DNA from: Hyalella azteca
Taxonomy: Eukaryota; Arthropoda; Malacostraca; Amphipoda; Hyalellidae
NCBI RefSeq assembly: GCF_000764305.2
Contig: NW_025947451.1
Span: 186,001 to 250,000 of the forward strand
DNA: 64,000 nt
Direction of reading: 5' to 3'
Shown: positions 9,110 through 63,108 of the stretch, piece after piece
How positions within the stretch are numbered: position 1 is the first letter of the stretch
How the letters are laid out: every line of letters starts with the position of its first letter
Made by a program: the position numbers and the translations under genes
The notes under the pieces: model-generated
Told to the model about the DNA's origin: nothing
Database searches by the model: none
The model's input: the letters and a program-made list of their open reading frames with translations, nothing else

Positions 9110-9414
9110 GTTACGGGACTTACCTTGGTGTCACGGAACTTTCCTCAGTGCCGCGGGACTAGCCTTTGTGTCACGGGACTGACCCTCAGGTCACGGGACA
9201 GACCTTAAAGTCACGGGACTGGCCTTCAGGTCACGGATCTGGCCTTCAGGTCACGGGACTAGCCTTAGTGTCACGGGACTGACCTCCAGGTCACGGGACT
9301 GACCTTCAGGTCACGGGGCTGGCCTTCAGGTCACGGATCTGGCCTTCAGGTCACGGGACTAGCCTTAGTGTCACTGGATTGACCTCCAGGTCACGGGACT
9401 GACCTTCAGGTCAC
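9110..9414. repeat. 20-bp array at the NWD exon 33 donor/stop
   Basis: About 15 copies of TCACGGGACTGACCTTCAGG. On the minus strand each unit reads CCC|GTGACCTGAAGG, matching the exon 33 edge. Confidence 0.88.
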
Positions 9415-9593
9415 GGGACGGCAGACGAGCGAGTATGTGACGGCTGGACGGGTTGATAGGGTCGACAATGGTTAGACAGGTGACGCAGCCGTCCACCGTC
9501 CCCAGGACGACGTTGGCGCCGTCCACACTGCACGCTATGCCCGTCAGCTCGGCCTGGACGCGGTAGTTGGCGATCATCGTCCCGTCCGCGACC
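9371..9593 (-). CDS. NWD exon 33, probable last exon
   Basis: Encodes [15 protein letters not shown] to [10 protein letters not shown]. At 9414 a GT follows CCGTCCC, so the exon may splice at 9415; if not, the frame runs 14 more residues into the minisatellite and stops at TGA, 9371-9373. I found no convincing further exon to the left. Acceptor TGTTCGCAG. Confidence 0.85.
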
Positions 9594-12500
9594 CTGCGAA
9601 CACCGGCGGTGTTGAACGCAACTGGGCCTATACTTCCAAAAAAAGTTAAGAGATCGTAAGTTCATCAGCCAATCATTGACGTTCTTTCACGCAAAATCCA
9701 CCAATCATAGACAAGAAAATAGAACGTAAGTACTTACGTTCACTTAGCTAGTTTTGAAAGTATGGCTCCAGCGCCCATACTTCCAAAAAAAGTTAAGAGA
9801 TCGTTAGTTCATCAGCCAATCATTGACGGCCTTTCAAGCAAAATCCACCAATCATAGACAAGAAAATAGAACGTTAGTACTTACGTTCACTTAGCTAGTT
9901 TTGAAAGTATGGCCCCTGATCACTGGGACATCACTTAACATCAGCGATAACAACATTAATGAAGCACTTTGTGCCGCTGGGAACCTGCTCTCACTACCGA
10001 GGAACATCTGGTCAGTTACTATTGGCGATCATCGTCCCGTCCGCCACCCTGCGAACAGCGGCGGTGTTAGAATAAAATAGAATGGAAGTGTCGCATTGAA
10101 GAAATAGGCCCATGGCCTGTCGCCGATTCGGGTACTTTTCGTGACTTGATTCACAAGGGATCCGGCCTTTGGAACCCGATCTTTCCATAACTGACGATTG
10201 ATTGAGATAACTGCTCGCCTTATTGGCTGGTCCGTAAGGTGCTTGGCATTTCAAGACTGAACATTGCTCAGTTGTGCTGAACACAACTGAGCGCAATGAT
10301 GCGCAGCGGTGTTAGGGACATCACTGGACATCAGCGAACACCATTAATGAAGCATATTCTGACACTGGGAACTTACTCTCACTGCCGGGGAACGTCTGGT
10401 CACCGAGACCATTTGCCCCACCTATAGACACACGAATAGTCGATATCCCCTTGGGCTAGTATGAGATACTGCCTACATCTAGCGCCAAACTTCATGCCCT
10501 AATTGAGCACTAGAATGGTTTTCATATACCCGCTTCAGGTGAGGACGATTCCGCACCTGAATACTCGCATGGTTTTCCTCCCCTCGTGGTGGTAGAGGAT
10601 GATTTCTCACCTGAACACCCGAATGGCTTTCTTCCCCCTATTGTAGTAGAGGACGCTTCCTCACCTGAGAACCCTAATGTTTTTCTTTCCCCCCTCTTAG
10701 TAAAAGACGTTGCCTCACCGCATGAACACTCGAATGGTTTTCCTCCCCCGCGGTTAGAAGAGAACGTTTCCTCACCTGAACACCCGAATGGTTTTCCTCC
10801 CGCCGTGGTAGTAGAGGACGTATTCGTCGGTCTTGGTGAACATGCAGATGACAGTGAACACCCCTTCGGCCACCCGAGGTATCAGCGTCCGCACCGACGT
10901 CCCGTGTCGGAGCTCCAGCAGTTCCAGTCCTCCTCGAGCGGGGGCGAAGAGGCCGTAACGACCGTCGCTTGTCACCTGATAAATAGAAAATACTAATGAT
11001 ATTTTTTTAGATAAGTAATATAACAAACAATGTTAGCACCCCAACTTGTGAACCACCCATTCGCCAATTTTGACAACCTACTCGTACAAATTCTCTTATC
11101 CATTTTATCACTCCACAATAGTGGCCAGTTATGGTTTTCAAATCGTAGGCCATGGCCCTTAACTATGGATCATGAGCCTTTTTATGGGGGGAGGGGATGG
11201 AGGACCCAAATTGCGCACCATATTGATCTTGCCGAAATCGAAGTTAACTGAATTTTTAGTGAAATACCTGCCCATGATGCAATATGTAAAAGAATCGCAA
11301 ATATAATGATTTTCTACATTTAGAACAGTCAGAAATCTCATTTATAGCGAACAAATGCTACAATACATATCTTTGGAAAGGAATATCTAGCATGTTCGGC
11401 CCGAAGTCAAGATTTGCCACTGGTCAAGAGGAAGAATTTGGAAGTCAATACAACACAATGTATGCTCCGCATTGAGGCTATGGTTCCCAAGACGCTTCTT
11501 GTTGCCTTCTAAATCACATTGAAAATTAAACTTTGGTACGCATCGTCAACCTAATGAAAAGAGTAGAACTGAACACCATGATTTTTTTGTATGTTGCCCT
11601 AAGACATGAAATCTGCCCACTGAGACCTCACCAAGACATCTGTGTGCTGTTAACCTGCAGAGGTAATATTCTTGATAGTGTATTTTTAACTGATAGATGA
11701 ATTGTTGATAGTGTCCGGTGTATTAGGCGTCTCGTTCTATTCACTATAATTATATTTTAAGATTAGATCATCTGTAATTGAGACGTAATATTCACTAGAT
11801 GTGACAGAGATTGATGGAAACGTACTAGACTTGAGTCAGCATTGACAACATCACGTGGCAGATCACGCGATCAAGACCTCAGTAGTGGGCGGAAGCCGTG
11901 ATTCTATAAAAGGCTGGAAACCTTAGTAATTAGGCCGCGAGTAACTGATGGCTTGATCGCGTGATCAGTCACGAGATATTGTCTATGCCGACTCAGGCCT
12001 AGTACTTTTCCATCAATCTCTGCCACATCTAGTGAATGTTTCGCCTCAATTACCGATGTTTAATCGTAGAATATAATGGCAATGAATAGAATGAGACGCC
12101 AGATTGATACCGGACAATAGTTAAGGTCTTTCAAAATGAGAAAAGGAAACAATTGTTGCAGGATATCTGGTAGCTGATTCAATGCAGTCCCGCCTACTTA
12201 AAATACGTGATTCAAGCTTTGAATAGATTCAACCGACTACTACAGGGCGAGATTCTATGACCACCATACCAGATCAAAGATGCCATTGAGGCTGTCATAG
12301 ACAAGCAAACTCGATCTCTGGAAAATGAAAGTCGGATGCTGTCCCGGTATCTATCTGTACGAGGTCGACGTAGAATAACACCTTACATTTGAGAGGCGGC
12401 AAGATGTCATGAAACACTTGTTAATCCGCCTAGACCCTAGAATGTGTTCAGACGTTATTTCCAGAATAGTGATATAAATGGGAATGTTCATATGGTTCAT

Positions 12501-15500
12501 GATGCGTTTTCTTTCATTACGGCCTGGTAATTTGATCAGAAGGTTGTTATCCTCAATTGGTTTCTCGTTATCTAAACTGCCGTCCCCACTCGTAACCCAC
12601 CTTACCGTACCCACTCATAACCCACCTTTTCACCCACACGTAACCCACCTGTCGTCCCCAACTTCTCACCTACTCGTAACACACTTTGCCGTACGCACTC
12701 GCAACCCACCTTCTCACCCACTCGTAACCCACCTTGCCACCCCACTTGTGGATGGATCGGATGAATTTTTTGGTGCGCACGTCGACGATGTTCCCTTTGT
12801 CGGGGTCAATGAGGGCGACCTGCAGCACGTGGCAGGTAACACGCGTCATGTATCAAAACACGTAAATATTTACCATACCTGAACTATACAAATACCAAGA
12901 AAATATATATTTCTGCTTGCATGTATGAAGCATTTAAACGGATTTATATTTATACAATGGAATGGAAACGTTAGGTTGATTGTTATCACCTAAAAGTTGC
13001 ATATCGTAATGTCAGATAATTGTGTCTGACATGATATTTGGATTCACTGAATGATAGGTCTGAAGTTTATAATCATTTATTTATTATTATCACGTAGGTC
13101 ACCTGTGTAGGCCTGTTAGGCATGGGCACCAGGGCGTGGAAGTCTTTGTACCCTGGATACTTGAGTACCATTTTGTGCAGCAGTGTACCCGTCTTGGCGT
13201 GGTAAACGAAGAGTACGTCCTGTTAAGCAAGTCGTGAAGTTAATACATGATATATCACTCGCACGAATACACAATCTGTCAATCATGACTTTTCTGTTAA
13301 AGAAAAAGCCGGCAACATTCCACACGCTTTTACACAGGTCCAGTTGCCGACTCGACATAGCCACGGCAGCGCCGGAGAGACTTCTTTGGCGCTGTTTTTG
13401 CGGTTACAGCAGCGCCACTTCGGAGCAAATAAGACCGCTTTGGCGCCGTTATATTAGCTGCGCAGCGGCGCTGCAGCGACGCCACACCCGACCTTTGTTG
13501 CGGTTATACGGACGTTGCGCGGTGCTACAAGCAATATCCTTTTTCGGTCGCGTTTAATCATGTTAAAACAGTCATTTTAAAACGAAAGAAGAAAATTAGG
13601 GTTTCGGGAGTGCTATTCTATTATTTGCATTTTAATGTTTTTAAATATATAACAAAATCCTGGAACAAATTTAATCTTTAATCCTGCCAGGTTAGCTATC
13701 CCATTGTGCAACAATTCATTGCCGCTTTGCGCTCACTCGCAAAAAAAGCACAAAATGTATTAAAACAAGTAAAGTAACGTTTATGAATAAATTAATTTCA
13801 TTTTTAGAAATAATTCAATTTAATACCTTCATGCCGTCTGCAGCGTGCACGCAATACCTACCTTCATGCCGTCTGCAGACGGCACCAGCAGCAGCAGACC
13901 GTCTGCAGACACGCAGGGCAGCTTGAAGAGTCTGAAGGGACAGGCGAGTTCGTACAGGAGATCGCCGGAGGGCAGGCAGCGGGCGACCACGTGGCACACG
14001 TCCTCGCCTGAGCTCTGCAACGGCACACATTTTACTCATATTTCCTTCAATTTAGCTTATTCATCATGCTAATCCTATTAACTTTCTACTTAACACTATC
14101 AATCATTATCTTTAATCCTAATTTAAATGAGTACGAATATTTAATTGACTTATTTGATGGAATTTAATCTTGAATATTTGCTTGAGTCAAATGATACAAG
14201 GAATCCAGACTGGAAGGTCTAGAGTAGGTCGGGTGTTCAAGAATGGAGGAAAATTAGTATGTATGAATCAGTGACGACTAATATGAAAGTGTTATTAACA
14301 AAGCTTTCATTTATTGCTGAGACCTAGTTTTTGGGCATAATATATCGATAAGAACAGAAATTTTAATAATGCGTATACGCGTGCTTTAATTCCATTTTGA
14401 CTCACTCTAATAAAATTCATGTTCAGCATATATTTACATAAATAAAAGGGATTTGAAACAATTTATAATCATGTTACTTTATAAGCATTTTTTTCAATAC
14501 GTATTCCTTAGGTAATGTAAGTCACCTTCAGAATAAAACAAAATGCGGACACAGAAGCCCTGCTGAAGCTCATTTTGAAAATAGATAAGTTCACCATCGA
14601 ATAGCGAGCTAAATCAGAGAAAACTTTGACAGAGGGGTTCTATTTTATACTGAATTGGAACACGGAGAAGCCGAAATGATGGTTTTTAAATACTAAAATG
14701 CGTAGTTGGTCACCAAGTAACACTGTCTTCAATTTATTTATGTAATAGAATATTTAAAGGTATAATGTTTGTTAGGATTTGTGTCTGAGAACATTAATTC
14801 CATACGCGGCATACACATAAGTCTTGAAGTCTTGAATTGAATTTTTTTCACTTTCATGGTTCACAAAAAAATATAATTACGTGCGAGAATATGAAAACTT
14901 GAAACAAATAAACTTGAATGGCAGGTCTCAAATTATGAAAATAATAATGAATAATCTTATAATGAAAATGGACATTTTTGTACATTTTCAGGATCTTCTC
15001 AATTTAAAAAAATGTAACTCAGTACTCACTGCAGTGAGTGACAGAGAGCGCATTTTCTCGTCGACGAAGACTTGAGGTCACGGACGGACAGAAAGACGGA
15101 CGGACAGACAGACAGACAGGCAGACAGACAGACAGACAGACGGACGGACATGGCGAGCACAATAGTGCATCTTTTCCATAAATGAGAAAATGCGCTAAAA
15201 AGCGGGTAAATAATGAATTCAAGAATCTTGATCTATGTTATTTTCGCCGCATTTGAAACGATGAGCTCTACAGATGACCGCAACGACGTACCCGACAGCT
15301 GAACGTAACGACGTAACCGACAGCTGGTCGTAACACCGTACCCGACGAAACGACGTACCCGACAGATGGCCAGAAACTTGGTGTCGCCGTCGATGATGAG
15401 GAGCTGCACGACGCCGCGCTGTGGGGCCCTGAACTGCACCGACAACGTCTTGACGTTCCAGATGAGTACGTTGCCTGATTCCGTGGACACGACGTACCTG

Positions 15501-18500
15501 CAACCGACGTATAAGGTTGTACATCTAGTAATTGGTTTTATTAGCTTATGGACGTGCCCGTCATCTATAAATAGTTGTTACAATCTCTTTGGCATTCATG
15601 TTATCTAGTTATAGGTTTTATTAGTTTATAGACATTCACGTCATCTAGCAATAGATGCTGCTATCTCTTTGACATTCATCTTATCTAGTAATAGGTTTTA
15701 TTATTTTATGGACGCTCACGTCATCTAGTAATAGATGCTGTGATCGCAATGACATTCATCTTATCTAGTAATAGTTATCTTATGGACTTCCCCGTCATCT
15801 AGCTACGGGCTTTGACTTCTGCTAGAACCACATTTAATTAGAATAAATGGTCTCTTTTGGACGTATGCATCTCCTAGAATCCAAAGGGGACTCACCTAGA
15901 GTCACTGGTGATCTCAGCATGGGTGACTATGGCGCCCAGGGGTGAGTCGGCGAGTTTGCTGGTGAGTTTGCCGAGTCTGAGGTTCCAGAGACCGACGCAG
16001 TTACGCGTCACGGTCACCGCCAGCGGCTGCGTCGGGGACAGGCTGAGAACAGTGAGAACAAGGAGGCTGAGAACAGCGATAACAAGGAGGCTGAGAACAG
16101 CGATAACAAGGAGGCTGAGAATAGCGATAACAAGGAGGCTGAGAAGAGCGATAACAAGGAGGTTAAGAAAGCGATAATAAGGAGGTTGAGAACAGCGATA
16201 ACAAGGAGGCTGAGAACAGCGATATCATGGAGGATGAGAACAGCGATAACAAGGAGGTTAAAGGCCACGAAAACAACCGTAATGATGACAACAAGGAAGC
16301 TCACTATACCTATGATCGTACGATAACAAAATGCGGGCTAGGATATATGCTGACCTGCTGACCTGATGTGGCCGACCTTCTAACCTGATGTGGCCGACCT
16401 GCTGACCTGATGTGGCCGACCTGCTGACCTGATGTGGCCGACCTGCTGACCTGATGTGGCCGACCTGCTGACCTGATGTGGTCGACCTGCTGACCTGATG
16501 TGGCCGACCTGCTGACCTGATGTGGTCGACCTGCAGCTCGTGTCGGTCGATGACGTGCACCTGCTCGAAGATGTTGTTGATGTTCCAGACCTTGACGGAG
16601 CGATCGAGGGAGGAGGTGATGACCTGCAGAGAGAGGGGGGGGGGGTTTAGTGGTAACATGGAGGACAGACGTGAGGGATCATATGGACCCGAGATATGAG
16701 GGACCCTAGATAAGGGACCCGAGATGTGAGGGACCCTAGATAAGGGACCCGAGATGTGAGGGACCCTAGATAAGGGACTCGAGATGTGAGGGACCCTAGA
16801 TAAGGGACCCGAGATATGGGACTCAGGATATGGGACCCGAGATATGGGGCTCAGGATATGGGACACGAGATATGGGACTCAGGATAAGGGACTCGAGATA
16901 TGGGACTCAGGATAAGGGACCCGAGATATGGGACTCAGGATAAGGGATCCGAGATATGGGACTCAGGATAAGGGACCCGAGATATGGGACTCAGGATAAG
17001 GGACTCGAGATATATGGGACCTTAAATATGAAACCCAAGAAAAAGACCCTAGATAAAGGACTCAAGATAAGGGACCCGAGATATGGGACCAGAGATGAAG
17101 AACCTGAGATAAGGAACCCAAGATAAGAGACCCAAGATATGGGACCCGATATAAGGGCTCAGAAACAATAGACCCGGTACGGGACCCGATATAAGGGCTC
17201 GGAGATAATAGACCCGGTACGGGACCACTCACGGAGTTCCAGTCCCGGACGGTGAGGGCGGCCATGCTGATGATCCTGCCGAAGTGCGCGTCGAGTTCCT
17301 TGACGAGACGCCCGTCCTGCAGCGTCCACACGTACAGGCTCTTCCTGCAGATAACAGCCGTGATGTGATAACAGCCGTGATAACAGATAATAGTAGTGAT
17401 AACAGATAACAGCCGTGAATTTACAGGAATTTAAAAGTAAAGAAAATAGCCAAAAAGTTCACCATTTCTTATAAGAGAAAACGTTTCGGAGTCCAGCTCC
17501 ATCGTCAGTCAAACAAACAATTAGTAGCCTAAAATTCACATTCAAACAATTCAGGTTTCAATTCGCCGGCGTCAGGTGAGCCGGCGACTGCTCACCTGAC
17601 GCCGGCGACGGCTCACCTGACGCCGGCGACGGCTCACCTGACGCCGGCGACGGCTCACCTGACGCCGGCGACGGCTCACCTGACAGCTCACCTGACGCCG
17701 GCGACTGCTCACCTGACGCCGGCGACGGCTCACCTGACGCCGGCGACGGCTCACCTGACGCCGGCGACGGCGTATTCCCTGCCGTTGGAGAGGACGCAGC
17801 AGTTGGAGGTCATGGGGCGCGTGCTGATGTTCCTCACTCCATGGGGCAGCTGTAGCCCCCACACCTGCCCCCCCTCCTGCACCTCCCACACCTGTAGGGT
17901 TTTGTGCAGGTGTAATCCATACTTAACAAATTTGTAAACATTACGGACAATTTAATCCACTTAACATAAAGTACAAAAGTACTCAAACATTTTGAAGGCT
18001 CAAACAGTCATACTTGTTTTGATAAACTTCTAATTAATATTAGATTTTTCTCACCTAAGGACTTTACTTCGTCTCAAGACGTCGATTCATTACAATTTTA
18101 TCCATATTTCGTTAAAATTACGTCTTTGGTCACTACCACACACCTTGGTCACTACGATTTAGGTCACTGCCCTACAGGTCACTACCCTCTAGGTCACTAC
18201 CCTCTAGGTCACTACCCTCTAGGTCACTACCCTCTAGGTCACTACCCTTTAGGTCACTACCTTCTAGGTCACCACCCTCTAGGTCACTACCCTCTAGGTA
18301 ACCACCACGCACCTTGAACCCGTTCATGGTAGTCCCCACCAAAGTCTGCAGGTCGTACGCAAGCTGCAGCTGCAGAAGAGGCGTCTCATTGTTCATAGTC
18401 TGTACACGCTGCCATGCAGAGTCTGCTCTCCTGTGCAGACACACAGCGTGGTCTGCTGTACAGCAATAGACCTCCTGTGCAGACGCTCCTCTGCACTGCG

Positions 18501-21500
18501 CGCTGCTCAGCAAAATTAAATTTTAATTTTCAACGGCAAAAATACAAGGAAGAGTCAACGAACTTAAATGCGATCATAAAAACCCAATTGGACCTTTTAA
18601 TTGTAACTACAAAAGCACAATCGAATCTCTTAATAGTAACAACAAATATACAATTGAACTTCTCAACGGTAACCACAAGAGCACCATTGAATTTCCTGAA
18701 GGCAAAAATAAAAACTCAATTGAAATATTTACCGGTAACTATATAAGCTCAATTGAGCTTTTTCTCAATTGAAATTCGCAATTGAAAATTTTAAAAATTT
18801 TTAACCATTTTCACGGTAACGATAGTAGCACTTTGACACTACCATCTAGAACTTGACATTACCATCTAGAACCTGACACTACCATATGGAACTTAAAAAT
18901 CCCATCTAGAACTTTACACTACCATTTACAATTTTACACTACCATCTAGAACTTTACACTACCGTTTACAATTTTACACTACCATCTAGAACTTTGCACT
19001 ATCGTTTAGAATTTTACACTACCATCTAGAACTTTGCACTACCGTTTACAATTTTACGCTACCATCTAGAACTTTACAGTTCCGTTTAGAATTTTACACT
19101 ACCATCTAGAACTTTACACTATCGTTTAGAATTTTACACTACCATCTAGAACTTTGCACTACCGTTTACAATTTTACGCTACCATCTAGAACTTTACAGT
19201 ACCGTTTAGAATTTTACACTACCATCTAAAACTTTGCACTACCGTTTACAATTTTACACTACCATCTAGAACTTGACCCTATCATATAGAAGTTGACACT
19301 ACCATTTAGAACTTGATAGCCAACCGCTTTAATTAAATATAACAATCTGATAATTGGTTGTTACATTGAATTGAACTCTGTTAAGTTTTGGGTTTTGTGT
19401 CGTTCTGTGTGTTGTGTATAATACACACAACACAACAACACAATTAACTCACTACTGACAGTTTGGGCAAAAGTTATTTGCTCAGGAATAGAACATTTGT
19501 ATTGCTGACAACCCTTCCCTTGACCATATTACATCTACTATACTAAATGTTTATTAATTATATAATTACATCTAACTACACTAAATATATATTAATTATA
19601 CAATTACATTCACCACACTAAATATTTATTACTCATATAACTACATATACTACACAAAATATTTATTAATTATACAATTACCTCTGCTACACTAAATATT
19701 TATTAAGTATGTAATTATATCTACTAAACAGTCTAAACTAAACATTTATTAATTATATAATTGCATCTACTCCACTAAACATTAATTAGCTATATAACTA
19801 CATCTACTCCACTAAACATTTATTAACTATATAACTACATCTACTCCACTAAACATTAATTAACTATATAACTACATCTACTCCACTAAACATTTATTAA
19901 TTATAAAAGAGGAACATTTTCATATCATTTTCATATTAATTATATAATTACATCTACCACATAAATATTTATTAATTATACAATTACATTCACCACACTA
20001 AACATTAATTAACTATGTAACTTCATCTACAACATAAATATTTATATATATATAAATAAATATAACTATATAACCGGTCAAATACTCGTAGAAGAGCAGA
20101 GGCTGGAGCTCTGCAGCGGCGGTGACGGTGTGCTGAGTGAAGGCTCTGCAGTCGCTGCTGCTCACTGTGATGGCCGTGTACTCCTGCAGAGTCTGAGCAG
20201 GAAATACATCCATTAAGCGTTATTTAATAAAAAATTACATTAAGCGTTATTGAGTAAAAAAATATTCATGCAGCATAATAGTCATTATGTTATTATTCAT
20301 AATAATATTCATATGTCTGTAGACATGATATTCATGCAAAAAAATTATGGTATGCCGCGTTAAATTTATGCAAAGTTTAAAAAAGTTAGTTGCAAGTATA
20401 TACAATTTCATGGCAAATCTCGAGACAACTTTCTGTTAAAGGTTAATTTCAGATTTAATGTAAAATTTATGACTTTATTGTTTGAATTTTAAGGCATTTA
20501 TACGCCCACACGAAAAGTTAAAGTTTCACGAAACTTTTAGCCACTCTAAGGTAACTTAATGAAAGTTGTAGACGTAAGAACTTGCCTCGAACTTCATGGT
20601 GATGATCTCGTCATCCCAACTTGATTTAACTTTGTCTACCAGCTGGCCTCTCAAGTTGAACACCGCCCAGCTGCTGTAGATGCCGAAATCAACGCTTTTC
20701 AACACATAGATAGAAGCCTTAGCTTATTAGAAGAATTATGTATTGAAATTGATGTTTGATATGAACTGGATATTTAATATCAATAATATAATATAATATA
20801 AACCTGAGCACAAAAACACGTGGTGAGCAGCACCACCTCAGCACAAAAACACGTGCTGAGCAGCACCACCTGAGCACAAAAACACGTGGTGAGCAGTACC
20901 ACCTGAGCACAAAACACGTGGTGAGCAGCACCACCTCAGCACAAAAATGTAACTGGTCAACATTATCTTAACATGTTTCACCAACACGACTGACCTACAC
21001 GAACGACCTACACGACTGACCTAATCGACTGACAAACACGAGTGATCTACACGAACTACCTACGTACACGACTGACCTATGCATGACTCACCAACACGAC
21101 TGACCTACACGACTGACCAACACGACTGACCAACACGACTCACCAATACGACTGACCTACACGACTGACCAACAGGACTCACCAGGTTGTTGTTGGTGTG
21201 GGCGACGGCGAATTTGTTATCAGGTGACAGCGTCAGGTCTTGGAGAATGCCTTCGATCTCCGGCACAACCTGGAGGGAAACAATCGTCGTCAGTGACTAC
21301 TTCGCTCTTGGCAGGTGGACACAACACGCACCAGCAACTACTTCGCTCTTGGCAGGTGGACACAACACGCACCAGCGACTAATTCTCAGTGTATGACTCA
21401 TTTCCTCCGCATATAACCTAAATATTTATTCAAATGACTCACTTTCTTCACGCATGACTCACTTTTTTCACGCATGACTCACTTCCTTGACGCATGACTC

Positions 21501-46768: not shown

Positions 46769-46806
46769 CTGTCTCTTATACACATCTAGATGTGTATAAG
46801 AGACAG
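46769..46806. other. Nextera mate-pair junction adapter (artefact), second
   Basis: The same 38-base sequence as at 5721-5758. It joins the 41-bp array on its left to a copy of 40183-40431 on its right. Confidence 0.98.
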
Positions 46807-50780: not shown

Positions 50781-50789
50781 TGATACAGT

Positions 50790-51860: not shown

Positions 51861-51869
51861 AATTATTTA

Positions 51870-52958: not shown

Positions 52959-55900
52959 CTGGAAAAGTTTAATCTCTTAATTTAAAATAATTATAATAAT
53001 AATTTAAAATTAAGAAAGAAATTAAGAAAATTAAGAAATAATTTAAGAAAAAGAAAGAAAAACCGACGTAAATACGATGGGTGATTTTCCTGACGTGCTC
53101 ATCAAATAGCCTTCGGAAAAATCATTGAAAATGAAGACTATGAATGCCTTTATTACATAAATATTAAAATACGTAAGATGTAAAACTTATGGTCTTGTAT
53201 GAATATATTTCCACAGGATAAATTTTTATTGTTAAGCGTGGACTCATTGAGTAACTTATTTGTTGATTATTTAGGTCATAAACTTAGAAGTTGATCAGGC
53301 ATCCATGAATTAAAGAAATCATTAATTAAGGAGTTTAAGTAATCAGGAAAATAGTTAATCGTATAATGAGGCAACAAGTTGATCATGCAATCAGGTCACC
53401 TGCTAATCAAGCAGTCAGTCAACCAGAAAGCTTGGTTGTGACCTAATCATTCAACCATGCCACCCTCTAATCAGGCAGCAGGCAAGCAGCAGGAATGGCA
53501 CAGGCAGGCAGCAGGCAAGGCACAGGCAGGCAGCAGGCAAGGCACAGGCAGGCAGCAGGCAAAGCACAGGCAGGCAGCAGGCAAGGCACAGTCAGGCAGT
53601 AGGCAAGCAACAGGAAGGGCACAGGCAGGCAGTAGGCAAGGCACAGGCAGGCAGCAGGCCAGGCACAGGCAGGCAGCAGGCAAGCAACAGGAAGGGCACA
53701 GGCAGGCAGTAGGCAAGGCACAGGCAAGGCACAGGCAGGCAGCAGGCAGGCAGCAGGAAAGGCACAGGCAGGCAGCAGGCAAGGCACAGGCAGGCAGCAG
53801 GCAAAGCACAGGCAGGCAGCAGGCAAGCAACAGGAAGGGCACAGGCAGGCAGCAGGAAAGGCACAGGCAGGCAGCAGGCAAGGCACAGGTAGGCAGTAGG
53901 CACGGCACAGGCAGGCAGCAGGCCAGGCACAGGCAGGCAGCAGGCAAGGCACAGGCAGGCAGCAGGCAAAGCACAGGCAAGGCACAGGCAAGGCACAGGC
54001 AGGCAGCAGGAAAGGCACAGGCAGGCAGCAGGCAAGCAACAGGAAGGGCACAGGCAGGCAGTAGGCAAGGCACAGGCAAGGCACAGGCAAGGCACAGGCA
54101 GGCAGCAGGAAAGGCACAGGCAGGCAGCAGGCAAGGCACAGGCAGGCAGCAGGCCAGGCACAGGCAGGTTGCAGGCCAGGCACAGGCAGGCAGCAGGCAT
54201 GACACAGGCAGGCAGCAGGCAAGGCATAGGCAAGGCGCAGGCAGGCAGCAGGCAAGGCACAGGCAGGCATCAGGCAAGGCATGGGCAGGCAGCAGGCAAG
54301 GCACAGGCAGGCAGCAGGCAAGGCACAGGCAGGCTGCAGGCAAGGCACAGACAGCAGATCAGGCACAGGCATACAGCAGGCACAGGCAAGGCACAGGCAG
54401 GCCTCACCCTCCCTGGCGCGTTCCCTCCACTTGCTCCTGTTGGCGGCCAAGCAGGCGACCCAGGGCCTCCTGAGCTCCCGCCCCACCATGGGGCGCCGGA
54501 TGGGGCCACCGGGCTCTGTGGGGCACGCAGGGGGATTAATGGGTGACATCAGGGCCCAGGGAACTGTGGGGCACTAATGGTAATAATATATATATGTATA
54601 TATCTATTATTATAATGTAGTTTATAATAATATATCATACAGTTTTATAATATATTTTTTATTAATATAGCTACAGACCGATGGCAGTCTCCTCAGCGAT
54701 GGTGTTGGCGGTGGCAGCGCCAGAGGCCAGCGTTGCCACCCTGTCCAGCAGGTCGCTGCACACGCTCAGACTGGGCTCTACGATGAAGTCGATGAAGCCT
54801 GCGCAACGCACGTGCAAAATTAGTGCTAATTGTGCGTGAAAATGTATGATTATTTGCGTGAAAATGCATGAAATTGTGCGTAAAAATGCATTAAATTTGA
54901 GTAAAGGAACTTAGAAATTGGGCGTGAAAATGCATGATTATTTGCGTGAAAATGCATGAAATTGTGCGTGAAAATGCATGATAATTTGAGTAAAGGAACA
55001 TAGAAATTTTGCGGGAAATTCATGATAATTTGAGTAAAGGAACATAGAAATTGGGCGTGAAAATGCATGATATTTTGAGTAAAGGAACATAGAAATTGTG
55101 TGTGAAAATGCATGATAATTTGAATAAAGGAACATAGAAATTGGGCCTGAAAATGCATGATAATTTGAGTGAAGGAACATAGAAATTGTGCGTGAAAATG
55201 CATGATAATTTGAATAAAGGAACATAGAAATTGGGCGTGAAAATGCATGATATTTTGAGTAAAAGAACATAGAAATAGTGTGTGAAAATGCATGATAATT
55301 TGCGTAAAGAATATAGAAATTGGGCGTAAAAATTCATGATAGTTTGAGTAAAGGAAGATAAAAATTGTGCGTGAAAATGCATGATAATTTGGGTGAAGAA
55401 ACATAGAAATTGTGCATAAAAATTCATGATTATTTGAGTAAAGGAAGATAGAAATTGTGTGTGAAAATGCATGATAATTTGAGTAAAAGAACATAGAAAT
55501 TGTGAGTGAAAGAATATATTAACTCAAAAAGTATATACGAGTGTGGTAAATATATTTTCCTATCAAAGTAATGGTGGTGAAAATTGAAATATTCAACACG
55601 AGTCCCGATGTTAATGATTTTGCAGATTGATAAGTCTAAGTGAACCATGTCACTAGCACTAGTACCTATCTGGCTCACGGCCAGTAGCGTGTTTCATATG
55701 ACACACGTCCCACCACGACACTAGCACTAGTACCTATGTGGCTCTCGACCACATGCCTGTAGCATAACACGCTCTAGTCCCACCATGACACTAGCACTAG
55801 TACCTATGAGCAACACTAGCACTGGTACTTATGAGCAACACTAGCACTAGTATCCATCAGCAACACCAGCACTAGTATCTATCTGGCTCTCGGCGAACAC

Positions 55901-58900
55901 CAACGTGTCACATAGCACTCTCAAGTCCCACCACGACACTAGCACTAGTCACCTATGAGCTACACTAGCACCAGTACCTATGAGCAACACTAGCACTAGT
56001 CCCCTATGATCAACACTAGCACTAGTACCTATCTGGCTCTCAGCGACGAGAGTATTGTTGCGGTCGCAGAGGGGGGAGTAGGGCAGGCCGAGCTGGTGCT
56101 CGCGGTCGCCCTGCCTGAAGAACTCCTCGAGCAGCTGGGCCGTCCAGCGCTGGTGCACCGCCCAGTCCTTGCTGGGGTGCGAGATGTCGCAGCAGTGCAG
56201 CACCAGCGACAGCGCCTTAGCCTTGTCCAGGCTGCTGGTGCAAACAAAGTGTACTTAAGGGGTGTACAGTGTACTTATGGACTTATGGGGTGCACAGTGT
56301 ACTGAGAAGGTGCGTACACTGTACAGTGCAGCACCAGCGACAGCGCCTTAGCCTTGTCCAGGCTGCTGGTGCAAACAGTGTACTTAAGGGGTGTACAGTG
56401 TACAGTGCAGCACTGTACAGAGGTGTGTATAGTGCGAACAGTGCACTGAGGGGATGTATACAGTATAGAGTCGACCTACAGTGTAATTAGAAATTTGAGG
56501 GTGAGCACATAGTACGAGGGTATGGATGACAAATGGATGACAAATTATATACGAGAGGGTTGGGGGGGGGGGCGAGTACAATATAAATGAGGATAACATA
56601 TAGCGGGCTCTTGGGGGCATGATGTATTGAAGCATGACAAACAATGTACTTTGGCCGCTCAGTACTAATTTCTGGTATCCAGAGGTGCAATGATATCAGC
56701 CGCAGTACTACAATGCTAAAGATGTCATCAATATACCGTTGCAGATGTCACCATCATCTTAACCATTTATATATTTATATATTCTATCACTAATCTTTTA
56801 TAGATTTCATTAGCAACCTTCTCTATACATAAATACTTATCACTAACATGTTATTTATCACAAAGCGGCGATATGATTTCTCAGTAACCTGCAATAGACT
56901 TGTTACTAACCTGCTCCAGGCGTCATCACTAACCTGTTCTCTGACATGGTAAGCATGTTCTTCATTGCTTTGATCTGCTGGAAGTGTGATGACATGTCAG
57001 TGGCCAGCACCATCTCTATCACCAGCCCGCGGAACTCACGGTACTCTTCCCGTGACAGGTTCACAACCAGGTTGTTCCCTTCCTCTTGTAGGAGTCTGCG
57101 CGGGGCAAAGGTTTATTTTATATGTTTTTTCCTATAAAATTACTTATATGATAAAAAATGTAACTCAGGACTCACTGCAGTGAGTGACAGCTAGAGAGCG
57201 CATTTTCTCGTCGACGAAAACGGAAAGTCATGGACGGACAGACAGACGGACGGACGGACGGACGGATGGACAGACAGATGGACGGACAGACAGATAGGCG
57301 GACGGACGGACAGACGGACAGACAGACGGACGGACAGACTGACGGACAAACGGACGGACAGACGGACATGGCGAGCACAATAGCGCCTTTTTTCTATAAA
57401 TGAGAAAATGCGCTAAAAAGGGTGTATATATGACGATTGAGGAGAATTATAGCAAAAGGGTCGAGTAACAGATTTGATTTTAGACAATTTCTTTCATTTC
57501 ATGAATTAGGCGATTGAATAACATTAATTTATTTGTAAATGATTAGTTACATTACACACAATTAATAATTAAATGATATGTTATCAAGTTAGACGCAGTA
57601 CTACGTTATGGGCAAAGCAGAGATATGACAACTCATGAGTAAAGCTCAGAAGTGCGAGTAATTTATATATTATAATATAATATATAAAATATATTATATT
57701 ATTTTCTATAAATCTTTAGAGCGGCACTCAGTATCTACATACGAGCTGTACAACTGCTACCAGTGAACTGTAGGTATAGAGCAGACAGTCAGGTTAATTG
57801 CTATTACTTAGCTTGTAGTCTATACGATACTTATACTTAAGTATAAAATTTTTACCATAGTCGGTAGTCTGTACTACAGTCTTTATTAAATAAAGTATAT
57901 CTTAGTCTATACAGCTCAATTATGGACACGGATACCATGATAGCGGAAGCGAGATTAGAATTTCTGTCAAGTAAAATACGCAAAGTCGTATAACAATTTC
58001 CAACAGCCGCGTAAATCATCGAAAACATTGGTCCCGCTTTTTTAAGACCAGCCGGCTGAGCAGAGTGTAACGCTCCAGACTTTTCAGGTGGAAAAATACG
58101 CAAGATGCAGATTTGACCTGTTACAGAACCAACCAACGCAGATACGACTGGTTAGACTTAAGGTAAGCAAGACACGAGCTGATACAGACTTGCCTCACCT
58201 CAACATATCCTCACCACAGCCTCAGCACCACACCCTCATCACGTCCCGCCACAGCCTCACCATAGCCACGGCACCACGCCCCACCACATCCCCGGCACCT
58301 CGCCCCATCACTGCCTCATCATAGCCCCGACACCACACCCTCATCACACCCCACCACAGCCTCACCACAGCCCCACCACAGCCCCACCACAGCCCCACCA
58401 CAGCCCCACCAAAGCCTCACCCCACGGCACCACACCCTCATCACACCCCTCCCACTGACCTGAATGCGGCGGATATGTGGTGGTTTTCTAGGACGGCGCG
58501 GTCGTTGTAGAGCAGCGCCGTCCACAGCCTCACCACAGCCTCACCACACCTCACCACCGCCCCACCACAGCCCCGGCACCACACCCTCATCACACGTCAC
58601 CACCACTGACCTGAATGCAGCGGATATGTGATGGTTTTCTAGGACGGCGCGGTCGTTGTAGAGCAGCGCCGTCCACAGCCTCATCACAGCCTCACCACAG
58701 CCCCGGCACCACAGCCTCACCACAACCCCGGCACCACACCCCACCACAGCCTCACCACACCCTCATCACGCCCCGCCACCACTGACCTGAATGCGGCGGA
58801 TATGTGGTGGTTTTCTAGGACGGCGCGGTCGTTGTAGAGCAGCGCCGTGTCGGAGCCCGACATGACGTGGAAGTTGTTGGTCGTGCCGGTGTGCTCGTAG

Positions 58901-61900
58901 TCGTGCACCATGGCCGCCACAAGGGTGGCCAAGATCTCGATGTCAGTCAACCAGTTCTGGAAGGATATTTTGGATATCAAGGAGAAAACTAGCGTCTCTA
59001 GTAGGTCGATGTCCGTCAACTAGTTATGGAAGGATATTTTGGATATCAAGGAGAAAACTAGTGTCTCTAGTATGTCGATGCCCGCCAATCAGTTCTGGAA
59101 GGATATTTTGGATATCAAGGAGAAAACTAGTGTCTCTAGTATGTCGATGCCCGCCAATCAGTTCTGGAAGGATATTTTGGATATCAAGGAGAAAACTAGT
59201 GTCTCTAGTATGTCGATGCCCGCCAATCAGTTCTGGAAGGATATTTTGGATATCAAGGAGAAAACTAGTGTCTCTAGTATGTCGATGCCCGCCAATCAGT
59301 TCTGGAAGGATATTTTGGATATCAAGGAGAAAACTAGTGTCTCTAGTATGTCGATGCCCGCCAATCAGTTCTGGAAGGATATTTTGGATATCAAGGAGAA
59401 AACTAGTGTCTCTAGTATGTCGATGCCCGCCAATCAGTTCTGGAAGGATATTTTGGATATCAAGGAGAAAACTAGTGTCTCTAGTATGTCGATGTCCGCC
59501 AACCNTACTCACTGCAGTGAGTGACAGAGAGCGCATTTTCTCGTCGACGAAAACTTGAGGTCACGGACGGACGGACAGACAGACGGACGGACAGACGGAC
59601 GGACAGACGGACGGACATTGCAAGCACAATAGTGCATTTTTTCCATAAATGAGAAAACGTGCTAAAAAGACAAACTTCAAAGTTGAGGAAGCAGTAGTTC
59701 TACAGCAGAAGCTACAAGTCATCGGCATTACTTCTTCAGTCAGAGGACGACTGAACGTAAGAGAACGATGGAACTTTACCTTGAACTTGTGCAGGAGGCC
59801 ATATCTGTTGAGTAGCTCGTAGGACAAGCAGCGCAGCGGCGTGTTGTTGCTGGTTTCTTGCAGCACAAACACATCGAAGTCCCAGCAGTCCACCCTCTGC
59901 AACACAACACAACGTGAGTACAAACACAACGAAGTCCCAGCACTCCACCCTCTGCAACACAACACACGTTAGTACAAACACATCGAAGTCCCAGTAGTCC
60001 ACCCTCTGCAACCCAACACACGTTAGTACAAACACATCGAAGTCCCAGTAGTCCACCCTTGCAACCCAACACAACGCCAGCGCAAACACAACGAAGTCCC
60101 AGCAGTCCACCCTCTGCAACACAACACAACTCCAGCGCAAACACAACGAAGTCCCAGCAGTCCACCCTCTGCAACACAACACAACACAACGTTAGTACGA
60201 ACACATCGAAGTCCCAGCAGTCCGGCCTCTGCAACACAACACAACGTCAGCCCTAACATCACCTATATATATCGTTTTTTTTTATACATGTGTATAATGT
60301 ATGTTATGTGTGAGTGTTTGAGAGGGTGTTTAGGTATGATAAGGGTATACCGGATGCGCATCCATGATATTTATCGTGTCAGGATTTTGCTTGGGATAGA
60401 AATTCATTTTTACGCACATTGGACAAATGCGAGACATTGGAAAGTGGGGCAAATGATGGATTAGGGAATTTACGTCTGCATTTAACTAGGGTGAGGATGA
60501 ATTTTATGACAAAATCGAACTGAGGGCAAAACTGAATTTTTATTTGCATAAACAGGAGTGTTAGTTGAGACTTGGTTAGCACGATGATTGGAACAGGATA
60601 TTCATTGATTAGCGAAATTATTTGTGTAATAATTAACTGGATTTTTGAAATGCAGTTCAGGATGATAATATTTAAGATTATTGGATTCTGGATAACGGTA
60701 TGTGGAAATATCCAATTTGTTGGTATGTGATCAATCAACTAATTCTTATTGATTAATACTAATTTAATTATCTAGAATATCGACAATTGTTATCAATTAA
60801 TACCAAATCAATTATGTCTAATACAAGCATGTGTCCATAAATAAAATGGAATAATTTCCCACCTTGAGTACCCTGGAGACCTCCTGCGGCAGCTGTAGGA
60901 AGGTGGCAGAGCAGAGTCTTCTGTAGATGCGCTCTACGAATATACCCGCACGGATGGCGTTAGCCACCGACCTGTGGGCGTAGACTCGGGTAGATTAAAG
61001 TAGTTATTAAATTCTGTAGATGCGCTCCACGAATATGCCCGCACGAATGGCGTTAGCCACCGACCTGTGGGCGTAGACTCGGGTAGATTAAAGTAGTTAT
61101 TAAATTCTGTAGATGCGCTCCACGAATATGCCCGCACGGATGGCGTTAGCCACCGACCTGTGGGCGTAGACTCGGGTAGATTAAAGTAGTTATTAAACAT
61201 AAGCAAGACAAGGGGTTAGGTAGAATTAGGCAAATGAAGGCTGTTCCTTAAGGGCCTGTGCAAATGCTGGGGTTTTTAAGGTAAGTTGGTAAATGAAGGC
61301 TGTTACTTAAATGCCTGCACAAATGGCGAAGATTTTAAGGTAGAATTGGGCAAATGAAGGCTGTTAAATAAGGGCCTGTACAAATAGTGGGGGTTTTTAA
61401 GGTAGAATTGGGAAAATGAAGGCTGTTAAATAAGGGCCTGTACAAATAGTGGGGGTTTTTAAGGTAGAATTGGGCAAATGGAGGCTGTTACTTAAGGGCC
61501 TGGTCAAATAGTGTGGTTTTTAAGGTAGAATTGGGCAAATAAAGGCTATTCCATGAGGGCCTATACAAATGGTGGGGTTTTTAAGGCAGAAAAGGTGCGG
61601 GGGTTGAGATAATAGACGTAGGATTGGAAGATTAACGTAGTTACAAATATTTTCCTAGACTAGGCATATATACACACACTTGCTTATAACAATCGGTATA
61701 AATTTCCATCCAAAACAAAAATAATTGTACAAGTACATTTTTGTCTTCAAGGAAATATGACTTGACCATTAATTTTTCATCACATTTAAATTCTGGAACT
61801 ACTAGAGGCCGTAAACTGGGCTCTGTTATGAAACACAGGATATTATTTACTACTATAAACTTGTCTCTGCTTAGGTCATCAGAATTTCATGCTACTGTGA

Positions 61901-63108
61901 ATATATAGTCTCTTGGGAGGCACGCCAGTATTATATGAATGTTTCACCACCACTTCCTTCACCACCACTTCCTTCACCACCACTTCCTTCATCACCACTT
62001 CCTTCACTACCACTTCATCACCACTTCCTTCACTACCACTTCATCACCACTTCCTTCACTACCACTTCACCACCACTTCATCACCACTTCCTTCACTACC
62101 ACTTCCTTCACTACCACTTCATCATCACTTCCTTCACCACCACTTCATCACCACTTCCTTCACCACCACTTCATCACCACTTCCTTCACCACCACTTCAT
62201 CGCCACTTCCTTCACTGCCACTTCATCACCACTTCCTTCACTGCCACTTCATCACCACTTCCTTCACCACCACTTCACCACCACTTCCTTCACTACCACT
62301 TCATCACCACTTCCTTCACACCACTTCATCACCATTTCCTTCACCACCACTTCATCACCACGTCTTGCGCTTCGCTCATCGATTTTGTTTGTTTTCGAGC
62401 AAAGGCGATGCTGGCTTTTGATTTGCCAATCAGGGCCGCAGTAGCCGCCTAATTGGCCAATATTGCCACCTAATATTGCGTCTTGTATTAGGTAGTAGTA
62501 ACTACAGGAGTAGTAACTACAGAAGTAGTAATTACAGGAGTAGTAACTACGGGAGTAGTAACTAAATCCTCGAGAAACTACAATGATATTCAATGGTAGA
62601 GTCATTAAGTGTTAATATTATTTTGGAATAGAGATTATTCTTGAAGTTTTCGCGATTCTCAAAATTTGTTATCGAGAAAAGAAACAATATTCATCATAGT
62701 TTTAGTCGCTTGCGTGAATGAGTCTTATTACTTTTCGTGATATACAAATCCATTTGTTTTTTAATGGAAATATTTGACCTAATGGCACATATAGAAGCAA
62801 GTATCACGAGCCGGATTACACTCTAAGTAAAATGTCTTTCATACCGACCGTATGCGACATATATACATAGGTCACCAGCCCTCACTTGAATTTAGGTTTT
62901 TCGTCGTTTTTTCACCGGCCGCCCGACAACAGGCGGTTGAAAATGGAGGCGGGACACCAACCCTTACCTGAACTTGGGTTTTTCGTCGTTTTTTCGCCGG
63001 CCGCCCGACAGCTGGCGGGTGAAGGTGGAGGCGAGCCACTCACGCACCTCGGGGGGCACCGCGTCAGGCTCCACCTCGGACAGCTCGTCCTCCTCGTCAG
63101 GGGGGCGT
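52765..63108 (-). CDS. Pde1c: Calcium/calmodulin-dependent cyclic nucleotide phosphodiesterase (PDE1), 5'-partial, one exon missing
   Basis: Nine visible exons code for about 441 residues. PDE1 enzymes hydrolyse cAMP and cGMP and are activated by Ca2+/calmodulin. Landmarks: the pre-catalytic block VREWLASTFTR and FRSVANAIRAGIFVERIY; then WDFDVFVL; HDYEHTGTTNNFH (metal-binding His-Asp); YNDRAVLENHH; VLHCCDISHPSKDW (metal-binding Asp); PLCDRNNTLVAESQIGFIDF, which includes the purine-clamp Gln. The calmodulin-binding N-terminus lies beyond 63108 and off the window. The segment holding HNxxHxxD, about 47 residues, is absent between 59780 and 58956, at an N join. The tail ends in a low-complexity DETK/GET repeat. 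PDE1 assignment is secure; the Drosophila symbol is given because that species has a single PDE1. Confidence 0.95.
52980..53450. other. PDE1 intron, nothing recognised
   Basis: AT-rich intron between the last two PDE1 exons, left of the large array. Confidence 0.5.
53460..54400. repeat. About 950 bp GCAGGCAAGGCACAGGCAG array
   Basis: About 45 units of 9-21 bp in the PDE1 intron, beginning next to the exon h donor. Long ORFs on both strands are a by-product of the units. Confidence 0.95.
54408..54515 (-). CDS. PDE1 exon h
   Basis: Encodes PGGPIRRPMVGRELRRPW to KWRERARE, containing the conserved RRPWVACLAANR near the PDE1 C-terminus. Acceptor GCCCCACAG, donor GTGAGG. The 950-bp array begins 9 bases into the intron. 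Confidence 0.88.
54679..54798 (-). CDS. PDE1 exon g
   Basis: Encodes FIDFIVEPSLSVCSDLL to ANTIAEETAI. Acceptor TTGCGCAG; donor GTCTGT is weak but phase 1 matches the next exon. Without splicing, the frame stops two codons on. Confidence 0.88.
54840..55505. repeat. 43-45 bp array
   Basis: About 15 units with GTGAAAATGCATGATAATTT and GAGTAAAGGAACATAGAAAT, starting 40 bp upstream of the PDE1 exon g acceptor. Intron only. Confidence 0.93.
55620..56028 (-). repeat. Donor-derived array of PDE1 exon f
   Basis: At least three copies of the minus-strand edge GAGAGCCAGATAG|GTACTAGTGC (near 55667, 55733 and 55877) mixed with shorter ACACTAGCACTAGTACCTAT units. Confidence 0.88.
56029..56231 (-). CDS. 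PDE1 exon f, second metal-binding Asp and clamp Gln
   Basis: Encodes LDKAKALSLVLHCCDIS, HQRWTAQLLEEFFRQGD and LCDRNNTLVAESQI plus one base. Acceptor CACCAGCAG, donor GTACTA. Copies of both edges flank it. Confidence 0.95.
56310..56380 (-). repeat. Extra copy of PDE1 exon f start with acceptor
   Basis: The minus strand repeats TTTGCACCAGCAG|CCTGGAC and about 30 more exon bases (AAGGCTAAGGCGCTGTCGCT...), 140 bp upstream of the real exon. Confidence 0.93.
56934..57095 (-). CDS. PDE1 exon e
   Basis: Encodes LLQEEGNNLVVNLSREE, LVIEMVLATDMSSHFQQ and KNMLTMSEN plus split S. Acceptor CCGCGCAG, donor GTTAGT. No junction array seen. Confidence 0.94.
57152..57418 (+). mobile_element. Microsatellite-bearing MITE family B, copy 3
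   Basis: Same termini with the longest GACA/GACG core (about 130 bp). Located in the PDE1 intron upstream of exon e. Confidence 0.75.
57420..58080. other. PDE1 intron, nothing recognised
   Basis: AT-rich intron to the right of the third family-B MITE. No conserved ORF. Confidence 0.5.
58190..58786 (-). repeat. Donor-side duplications of PDE1 exon d
   Basis: Two extra copies (about 58457-58527 and 58610-58672) of the last 65 exon bases, coding YNDRAVLENHHISAAF, each with GTCAGT, set in CACCACAGCCTCA repeats. Confidence 0.95.
58787..58956 (-). CDS. PDE1 exon d, metal-binding HD
   Basis: Encodes NWLTDIEILATLVAAM, HDYEHTGTTNNFH and YNDRAVLENHHISAAF plus split R. Acceptor CCTTCCAG, donor GTCAGT. 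Both edges have been tandemly duplicated, one on each side. Confidence 0.95.
58957..59504 (-). repeat. Acceptor-derived 69-bp array of PDE1 exon d
   Basis: Eight near-identical units; the minus strand has ATATCCTTCCAG|AACTGATTGG, a copy of the acceptor and first exon bases, then ATCGACATACTAGAGACAC. Cut off by the N at 59505. Confidence 0.95.
59506..59670 (+). mobile_element. Microsatellite-bearing MITE family B, copy 4, 5'-cut at N join
   Basis: Begins abruptly with TACTCACTGCAGTGAGTG right after the single N at 59505, so the first bases are lost. The rest matches the other copies. Confidence 0.75.
59780..59896 (-). CDS. PDE1 exon c
   Basis: 39 codons RVDCWDFDVFVLQETS to NRYGLLHKFK, the start of the catalytic domain. 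Acceptor TGTTGCAG, donor GTAAAG. Six acceptor-side copies precede it. The next coding segment is missing. Confidence 0.93.
59897..60255 (-). repeat. Acceptor-derived array of PDE1 exon c
   Basis: Six units of 53-60 bp; the minus strand repeats TGTGTTGCAG|AGGGTGGACTGC and TGGGACTTCG, the acceptor plus the first 30 exon bases. Confidence 0.94.
60300..60860. other. PDE1 intron, nothing recognised
   Basis: AT-rich intron between exons b and c; no tandem structure. Confidence 0.5.
60863..60971 (-). CDS. PDE1 exon b
   Basis: 36 codons SVANAIRAGIFVERIYR to QEVSRVLK. Acceptor CGCCCACAG, donor GTGGGA, phase 0. Its first 51 bases with the acceptor occur twice more upstream. Confidence 0.93.
60972..61195 (-). 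repeat. Acceptor-side duplications of PDE1 exon b
   Basis: Two extra 91-bp units, each with CGCCCACAG|GTCGGTGGCTA and the rest of the first 51 exon bases. Confidence 0.95.
61210..61600. repeat. 60-bp array
   Basis: About six units with GGCAAATGAAGGCTGTTA, AAGGGCCTGTACAAATAGTG and TTTTTAAGGTAGAATTG in the PDE1 intron. Confidence 0.9.
61945..62370. repeat. CTTCCTTCACCACCACTTCA array
   Basis: About 20 units of 18-21 bp. ORFs of Pro/Ser/Thr/His-rich type in all frames are repeat translations. Confidence 0.92.
62873..62967 (-). repeat. Extra copy of PDE1 exon a end with donor
   Basis: The minus strand repeats the last 50 exon bases (GTCGGGCGGCCGGTGAAAAA...) ending AATTCAA|GTGAGG, about 85 bp downstream of the real donor. 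Confidence 0.92.
62968..63108 (-). CDS. PDE1 exon a (first visible)
   Basis: Encodes RPPDEEDELSEVEPD to KNDEKPKF plus split R; contains VREWLASTFTR, the PDE1 block linking the regulatory and catalytic regions. Acceptor TGCCCCAG at phase 1 implies upstream exons outside the window. Donor GTAAGG. Confidence 0.92.

Follow-up and report, generated by a model that had tools for sequence, protein, structure and literature searches.

Genes and tandem arrays of the locus

The window analysed here, i.e. the whole stretch of 64,000 nucleotides from the amphipod Hyalella azteca (assembly GCF_000764305.2, contig NW_025947451.1, positions 186,001 to 250,000), contains an NWD2-like gene and a PDE1 gene, both on the minus strand, and numerous tandem arrays. 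At many exon ends of both genes the unit of the neighbouring array carries the terminal bases of that exon together with its splice site. Within the window, the founding units of these arrays cross donors several-fold more often than random seeding predicts, and pooled acceptors are crossed at a rate close to that expected from GC content.

Exons were placed by eye on the minus strand, for which about two thirds of the window was read, and the joined exons were translated and then compared with homologues. The NWD2-like exons were also checked by tblastn with an isopod protein (P0005) as query, a match being defined as E below 0.5. The isopod protein matched 32 of the 33 modelled exons; exon 22 showed only a weak match (E 0.046) and exon 23 none. 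Full-coverage matches of the NWD2-like protein were to malacostracans (decapods and an isopod) at 71-73% identity. The PDE1 protein matched solved PDE1B structures, and its best match among those listed was the amphipod Trinorchestia longiramus (79%). A near-identical protein was not present among the best 120 matches listed in either search. These matches rule out amphioxus as the source of the DNA, and the PDE1 match agrees with an amphipod or a near relative. At borders bearing arrays, the reading obtained from the original donors agreed with the homologues, both in translation and by tblastn.

Missing from the NWD2-like model are exon 21 and the last coding exon, along with the beginning of exon 22 and the end of exon 23. 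About 40 NWD2 residues (P0005 993-1032) gave no tblastn match within the window. A 33-base array at 20802-20947, whose unit reads VVLLTT..., resembles the homologous QTILLNMLTSEFF segment; at this site the array may consist of copies of the coding mini-exon itself, or the exon may have been lost. The intron preceding exon 3 (acceptor at 40719) ends in AT instead of AG (CCCACAT/GTGGTG, the exon start being fixed by homologues), which reflects either a sequencing error or a rare splice site. The donor of exon 22 (20586) is a GC donor (GAG/GCAAGT).

Arrays were called with Tandem Repeats Finder (TRF; minimum score 40, units of at least 8 bases). The 102 arrays obtained take up 37.9% of the bases in introns, 33.1% of those between genes and 11.2% of those in exons. 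Border counts exclude the donor of exon 23, the acceptor of exon 22, exon 21 and, as it has no acceptor, exon 1 on the acceptor side. The acceptor of exon 24 was set at 18399 in the counts of TRF spans and 20-base windows and at 18505 in later tests.

Copies of exon ends in the adjoining arrays

According to TRF, an array spans the donor at 18 of 39 borders (15/32 in NWD2, 3/7 in PDE1) and the acceptor at 6 of 38, with units from 12 to 197 bases (Table 1). With 20-base windows and at least 16/20 matches, a local copy was found at 18/39 donors and 7/38 acceptors, as against 36.5% of intron positions. A 22-base junction probe was also used, for which copies were accepted at 16/22 matches or more, a cut-off that raises the measured identity. 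Copies downstream of the donor were detected at 21/39 borders (92 copies, 78 with GT) and copies upstream of the acceptor at 7/38 (21 copies, 20 with AG). A copy within the next 600 bases was likewise found for 1083 of 3379 intron-interior probes (32%), but for only 12 of 346 exon-interior probes. In the array of NWD2 exon 18 the decoy peptides, too, matched the isopod protein by tblastn, and copies related to the array of exon 4 extend to about 38340.

An earlier note on this DNA had proposed that the neighbouring array contains the exon's own bases and splice site, and this was borne out by both TRF and the probe. Its individual assignments held for the most part, on the assumption that its NWD exon numbers above 20 are the present numbers minus one. 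Among the 22 donors that it listed, 20 gave copies with the probe, while those of NWD2 exons 19 and 20 did not (14/20 and 13/20 in 20-base windows); TRF arrays begin at both of these donors, within two exonic bases. Six of its seven acceptors were also recovered, the remaining one (its exon 27, exon 28 here) sharing only 3 exonic bases with the array. The acceptor of NWD2 exon 9 and, with one weak copy, the donor of PDE1 exon e were positive in addition.

The arrays also matched their own exons far more often than foreign ones, as the note had claimed. In this control each probe was compared with the 600-base region of other exons, and pairs in which the region reached the probe's own exon were dropped (12 donor and 11 acceptor pairs). 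Own-exon matches at 21/39 donors compare with 7/1470 foreign pairs, and those at 7/38 acceptors with 6/1395, all within the window; chance matching of foreign exons is thereby ruled out.

Table 1. Gene models and tandem arrays or copies at exon borders, in window positions; the position of the donor or acceptor border is given in brackets
Feature	Position	Strand	Details
NWD2-like gene	9404..41440	-	modelled exons 1-20 and 22-34 (33 exons); translation, homologues, tblastn
PDE1 gene	54679..63108	-	exons a-g (7); translation and homologues
Donor array, NWD2 exon 1 (donor after 41338)	41222..41343	-	unit 20, 6 exonic bases; 4 decoys, all GT
Donor array, NWD2 exon 3 (40603)	40034..40620	-	unit about 191-197, 18 exonic bases
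Donor array, NWD2 exon 4 (38846)	38756..38868	-	unit 44, 23 exonic bases; 7 decoys, 6 GT
Donor array, NWD2 exon 5 (36490)	36365..36512	-	unit 29, 23 exonic bases
Donor array, NWD2 exon 8 (34699)	34462..34711	-	unit 40, 13 exonic bases
Donor array, NWD2 exon 11 (32744)	32585..32757	-	unit 33, 14 exonic bases
Donor array, NWD2 exon 13 (28047)	27601..28069	-	unit 66, 23 exonic bases
Donor array, NWD2 exon 16 (25414)	25209..25453	-	unit 53, 40 exonic bases
Donor array, NWD2 exon 17 (24871)	24813..24901	-	unit 41, 31 exonic bases
Donor array, NWD2 exon 18 (22409)	21897..22453	-	unit 51, 45 exonic bases; 10 decoys, 9 keep GT
Donor array, NWD2 exon 25 (17755)	17580..17771	-	unit 21, 17 exonic bases; 8 decoys
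Donor array, NWD2 exon 27 (16517)	16352..16534	-	unit 22, 18 exonic bases; 7 decoys
Degraded donor copies, NWD2 exon 29 (15359)	15270..15346	-	3 decoys, 1 GT (junction probe)
Donor array, NWD2 exon 32 (12733)	12657..12742	-	TRF unit 12 (period about 23), 10 exonic bases
Donor array, NWD2 exon 33 (10776)	10541..10825	-	unit 54, 50 exonic bases
Donor array, NWD2 exon 34 (9404)	9107..9419	-	unit 20, 16 exonic bases; 13 decoys, 6 keep GT
Donor duplication, PDE1 exon a (62968)	62873..63033	-	unit 82, 66 exonic bases; one decoy
Donor array, PDE1 exon d (58787)	58198..58848	-	62 exonic bases; two decoys
Donor array, PDE1 exon f (56029)	55644..56032	-	4 exonic bases by TRF
Acceptor array, NWD2 exon 9 (34146)	34136..34217	-	TRF and junction probe
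Acceptor array, NWD2 exon 14 (26935)	26903..27127	-	33 exonic bases
Acceptor array, NWD2 exon 28 (16042)	16040..16261	-	3 exonic bases only; TRF
Acceptor array, PDE1 exon b (60971)	60919..61197	-	unit 93, 53 exonic bases
Acceptor array, PDE1 exon c (59896)	59865..60247	-	32 exonic bases
Acceptor array, PDE1 exon d (58956)	58937..59502	-	unit 69, 20 exonic bases

Junction-spanning arrays compared with chance

The note had further held that chance overlap of random arrays cannot explain why each array matches its adjacent exon. This argument fails, because an array whose founding unit crossed a border must match that exon in any case, and plain overlap is at background: 24 of 77 junctions lie in arrays, as compared with an intron coverage of 38% (p = 0.24). 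Donors taken alone did not differ from coverage (18/39, p = 0.18) and acceptors were below it (6/38, p = 0.003). Coverage is, however, the wrong yardstick, because arrays grow by added copies that push their flanks apart, and a fixed point comes to lie inside an array only if it was part of the founding unit. A seed-based null was therefore used, in which each array was reduced to one founding unit and placed at random, with an exon intrusion of at most one unit.

Under this null, 18 donors were observed where 2.6 were expected (maximum 7 in 400 runs), and 6 acceptors where 2.6 were expected (maximum 8). A looser seed rule gave expectations of 3.5 for donors (maximum 8) and 3.5 for acceptors (maximum 10). 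One-unit seeds take in 5.0% of the bases in introns and 6.1% of those between genes, so that about 2 of 39 donors would be expected in them; with doubled units (9.6% and 11.4%) the figure is about 4 of 39. The simulation was also carried out by gene with 1000 runs, the acceptors of exons 3 and 24 being omitted as well. NWD2 donors (15/32) exceeded an expectation of 2.1 that was brought up to the observed number in none of the runs, and the NWD2 acceptors (3/29, expected 1.9) were equalled in 305. For PDE1, 3/7 donors against about 0.65 expected were reached in 22 runs. Overall, donors were spanned more often than acceptors (Fisher p = 0.006), as they were in NWD2 alone (15/32 and 3/31, p = 0.002).

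The edges of the arrays were also mapped. The exonic sequence up to 70 bases from a donor (2730 bases in all) holds 20 left edges, or 7.3 per kb as compared with 1.24 per kb in introns, and their density is highest, at 11.5-12.8 per kb, over the final 30 bases of exons. Array cover is 0.61 in the first 100 bases of introns and 0.32 in the last 100 (35 introns, flip test p = 0.009), and in the last 20 intron bases it is 0.22, against 0.38 obtained by rotation (p = 0.006); introns after exons 20 and 23 were omitted from these intron-position tests. Junction arrays also have longer units than the others (median 42 and 21), as expected if the chance that a unit crosses a fixed point is proportional to its length. 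A difference in age between junction arrays and other arrays was considered and rejected, the mean match being 87.0% (n=24) and 84.5% (n=78), respectively (p = 0.18).

An alternative that dispenses with any junction preference would have arrays arising everywhere in a genome dense in repeats, with GC-biased seeding, exons being rich in GC, and with purifying selection that is weaker at donors than at acceptors; arrays across borders would then be what is left of the events that touched exons. The high background is in its favour, since arrays make up 38% of intron and 33% of intergenic sequence and junction overlap equals this background. GC-rich sequence seeds 1.8-2.2 times more arrays (26/78 arrays), and the GC content at the borders raises the expectation 1.57-fold for donors and 1.71-fold for acceptors. 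After this correction the pooled acceptors agree with expectation (6 observed, 4.5 expected, Poisson p = 0.30; uncorrected 2.6, p = 0.049). For donors, however, GC content accounts for about 4 of 39 and not for 18; the excess after correction is still about four-fold (18 and 4.1, Poisson p = 4e-7). Selection, moreover, only removes events and would not by itself raise donors above the 5% seed rate of introns. We therefore regard a complete absence of junction preference as unlikely.

Several points nevertheless weigh against a general preference for donors. Plain overlap, as given above, is not significant, and the whole excess rests on the seed-based null, which is of our own design. The donor bias arises from NWD2; PDE1 shows no bias, with 3/7 at both kinds of border, and its acceptors, too, lie above the null (about 0.65 expected, reached in 18 of 1000 runs). 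Right edges at acceptors occur at 2.1 times the intron rate (p = 0.05). In arrays away from junctions, antisense donor-like motifs are somewhat denser than outside arrays, both for GGTRAG (8, 0.54 per kb, and 11, 0.29 per kb) and for GTRAGT (11, 0.74 per kb, and 17, 0.46 per kb). Finally, the evidence comes from the sequence of two genes in one window and one assembled haplotype. The suggestion that duplication preferentially starts at exon-intron borders thus stands in so far as both genes exceed the seed-based null, but the strong excess is limited to donors and to NWD2.

The donor motif alone hardly seeds arrays, because sense GGTRAG sites are similarly dense in non-junction arrays (7, 0.47 per kb) and outside arrays (14, 0.38 per kb). 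The donor hexamer is thus ruled out as a sufficient seed, and a weak effect of donor-like motifs on seeding is possible.

Retention and predicted consequences of decoy splice sites

If the extra 5′ splice sites were beneficial, e.g. by improving the recruitment of U1, by guarding against premature polyadenylation or by providing alternative exons, the decoy arrays might have been selected. The splice dinucleotide is indeed kept in most donor and acceptor copies (78/92 and 20/21). GT is retained in 84.8% of donor copies (array mean 89.5%). The corresponding means of neighbouring pairs are lower, with 80.7% on the exonic side and 72.8% among later intronic pairs. This surplus is small, however, and copies within one array are not independent. 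Identity to the real site showed no significant difference between the two sides of the border (exonic 87.2%, intronic 82.5%; 21 arrays, p = 0.32).

Most of the first decoys are predicted to disrupt the reading frame. The offset of the first copy is divisible by three in only 5 of 21 cases. Considering first decoys only, their use would lead to a frameshift or stop in 16 of 17 NWD2 cases, exon 29 alone staying open, and would shift the frame in 3 of 4 PDE1 cases. The predicted frames thus argue against the decoys as coding redundancy, and the proposal that the arrays supply redundant splice sites found no support here. The decoys may still influence the strength of splicing or the stability of the transcript, and models of U1 recruitment are untouched by the frame analysis.

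Two kinds of observation do not fit easily with decoys as mere by-products. With a donor weight matrix that favours real sites, as the 39 donors themselves went into it, decoys scored equal to the real donor (to 0.1) in 42 of 92 cases and higher in 6, and in exons 11 and 32 they average higher than the real donor. Also, mild constraint on the decoy GT is possible, with the reservations on the surplus just given. Taken together, we consider it improbable that the arrays were selected as decoys.

Quality of the assembly and other features

An exact palindromic adapter sequence, which we take to be the Nextera mate-pair junction, is left in the assembly at 5725-5754 and 46773-46802. Such leftover adapters point to likely false joins and are a sign of short-read assembly. 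A catalytic-domain exon of PDE1 that is present in Trinorchestia and Petrolisthes was found neither between exons c (59780) and d (58956) nor elsewhere in the window. A single N lies at about 59506, between these two exons, and as the missing exon is beside it, the assembly probably dropped sequence adjoining an array. The array copy numbers, being derived from a short-read assembly, may well be wrong. That mate-pair assembly made or inflated the arrays themselves is, despite the two untrimmed adapters, 481 N and the missing PDE1 exon, hardly credible, since assembly error is expected to duplicate identical sequence, whereas the copies are not identical to one another (mean match 87%, 24 junction arrays) and the periods differ from exon to exon.

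A dispersed element, recognised by eye on the minus strand at about 15.0-15.2, 26.2-26.3, 57.2-57.4 and 59.5-59.7 kb, has a GTCC/GTCT tract, after which comes GACCTCAAGTCTTCGTCGACGAGAAAATGCG or a closely similar sequence. The minus-strand open frames 8171-8453 and 31201-31497 have PYFG.ASET...LK.LF.KY in common; at a guess, they may be fragments of a retroelement-like protein.

Relation to known systems

The earlier note knew of no described element class of this kind. Such a class exists, however, in the amphioxus 'mirages', which are minisatellite-like tandem duplications across exon-intron boundaries (PMC3087553, PMC3902484); what is said here of these and of the other papers cited applies to the portions of their text that were available. 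Mirages were described in Adh3, TnC and globin genes (PMC3087553), to which PGBD5 was added in a report that also names troponin C (PMC3902484). Their units range from 10-72 bp in Adh3 to 150-160 bp in the globins (PMC3087553). They occur at both 5′ and 3′ sites and many copies keep AG/GT, splicing is undisturbed as checked by RT-PCR, and copy number is polymorphic, including somatic instability (PMC3087553, PMC3902484). The arrays of H. azteca share with them a unit that holds the end of the adjacent exon and its splice site, the presence at both boundaries and a similar range of units. They differ in that the amphioxus cases are gene-by-gene reports from cephalochordates, whereas the present arrays are from an arthropod, are known from assembled sequence and involve roughly every second donor of the two genes, of which one shows a donor bias.

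In humans, the interferon-induced gene 6-16 (IFI6/G1P3) has a minisatellite that is said to provide multiple donors in this single gene (Turri, Cuin and Porter, 1995, cited in PMC2572611 and PMC4526556). There, the extra donors reportedly go to the transcript, whereas the decoys found here would mostly break the reading frame.

In human genes of segmental duplications, internal tandem repeats with units of ~30 bp on average have been described, some of them at exon-intron boundaries (PMC2812944). Minisatellite expansion at such boundaries is common to both systems, but the human repeats concern recent paralogues in which exons were changed or introns created, and multi-donor seeding within one gene does not appear among them. 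In the Rogers model, introns are gained via duplicated AG/GT proto-splice sites (as cited in PMC3087553). A duplication bearing splice signals is shared with this model, but the arrays described here sit inside pre-existing introns and no new intron was seen.

Among the best-ranked matches in the openly licensed literature, no report of junction-spanning minisatellites in crustaceans was found. In the available text of a paper on Daphnia tandem repeats (PMC3152781) the terms splice, exon-intron and intron-exon do not occur. Repeats of a prawn lectin gene lie within an exon (PMC7536079), and an earthworm metallothionein has intronic minisatellites and exon duplications that are not clearly of the junction-spanning type (PMC12783039). 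As far as could be seen, the structure is thus of a known kind, i.e. that of mirages, and the crustacean lineage, the density and the donor bias of NWD2 are new.

Proposed origin and significance of the arrays

The arrays are probably crustacean mirages, i.e. mainly neutral duplications that survive via the intact original donor, to which a mutational preference of the donor region may be added. Arrays that begin 4-66 bases inside an exon at their left end, with a unit extending into the intron, have the terminal exonic bases and the 5′ splice site in their units. Within the window, such founding units cross 5′ splice sites several times more often than under random seeding, with pooled 3′ sites at about the GC expectation. 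Duplications of this kind could then survive since the upstream-most, original donor stays in place and normal mRNA would still be made. An equal duplication inside an exon would be removed by selection, and one at an acceptor would be less tolerated, as it would disturb the branch point, the pyrimidine tract and the first AG. The copies would thereafter be mainly neutral, decaying by-products and not alternative splice sites kept for use, as is suggested by the similar exonic and intronic divergence and by the frame analysis. The last step is the least certain: the excess over a model of permissive survival suggests that the donor region may also originate more tandem duplications.

A more far-reaching form of the latter idea, in which the transcribed 5′ splice site is a hotspot of tandem duplication in the germ line and minisatellites are born genome-wide at exon ends, seems doubtful to us. 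We would be similarly tentative about a cause that lies in a working exon-intron border (e.g. polymerase pausing, R-loops or a GC step) instead of the donor motif.

With neutral duplication at an intact donor as the preferred explanation, the arrays of H. azteca represent a real and dense set of the mirage type in an arthropod, a phylum distant from amphioxus. Should the donor bias extend to the whole genome, minisatellites would be born at exon ends, and a phenomenon otherwise encountered, as far as could be seen, in some amphioxus genes and single human cases would occur at high density in a distant phylum. The reasons for the starting points of tandem duplications, and the choice by the spliceosome of a single donor where up to nine similar copies bear GT, as in exon 18, would thereby become testable. 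Gene predictors should be used with caution in such genomes, where decoy copies may be taken for exons.

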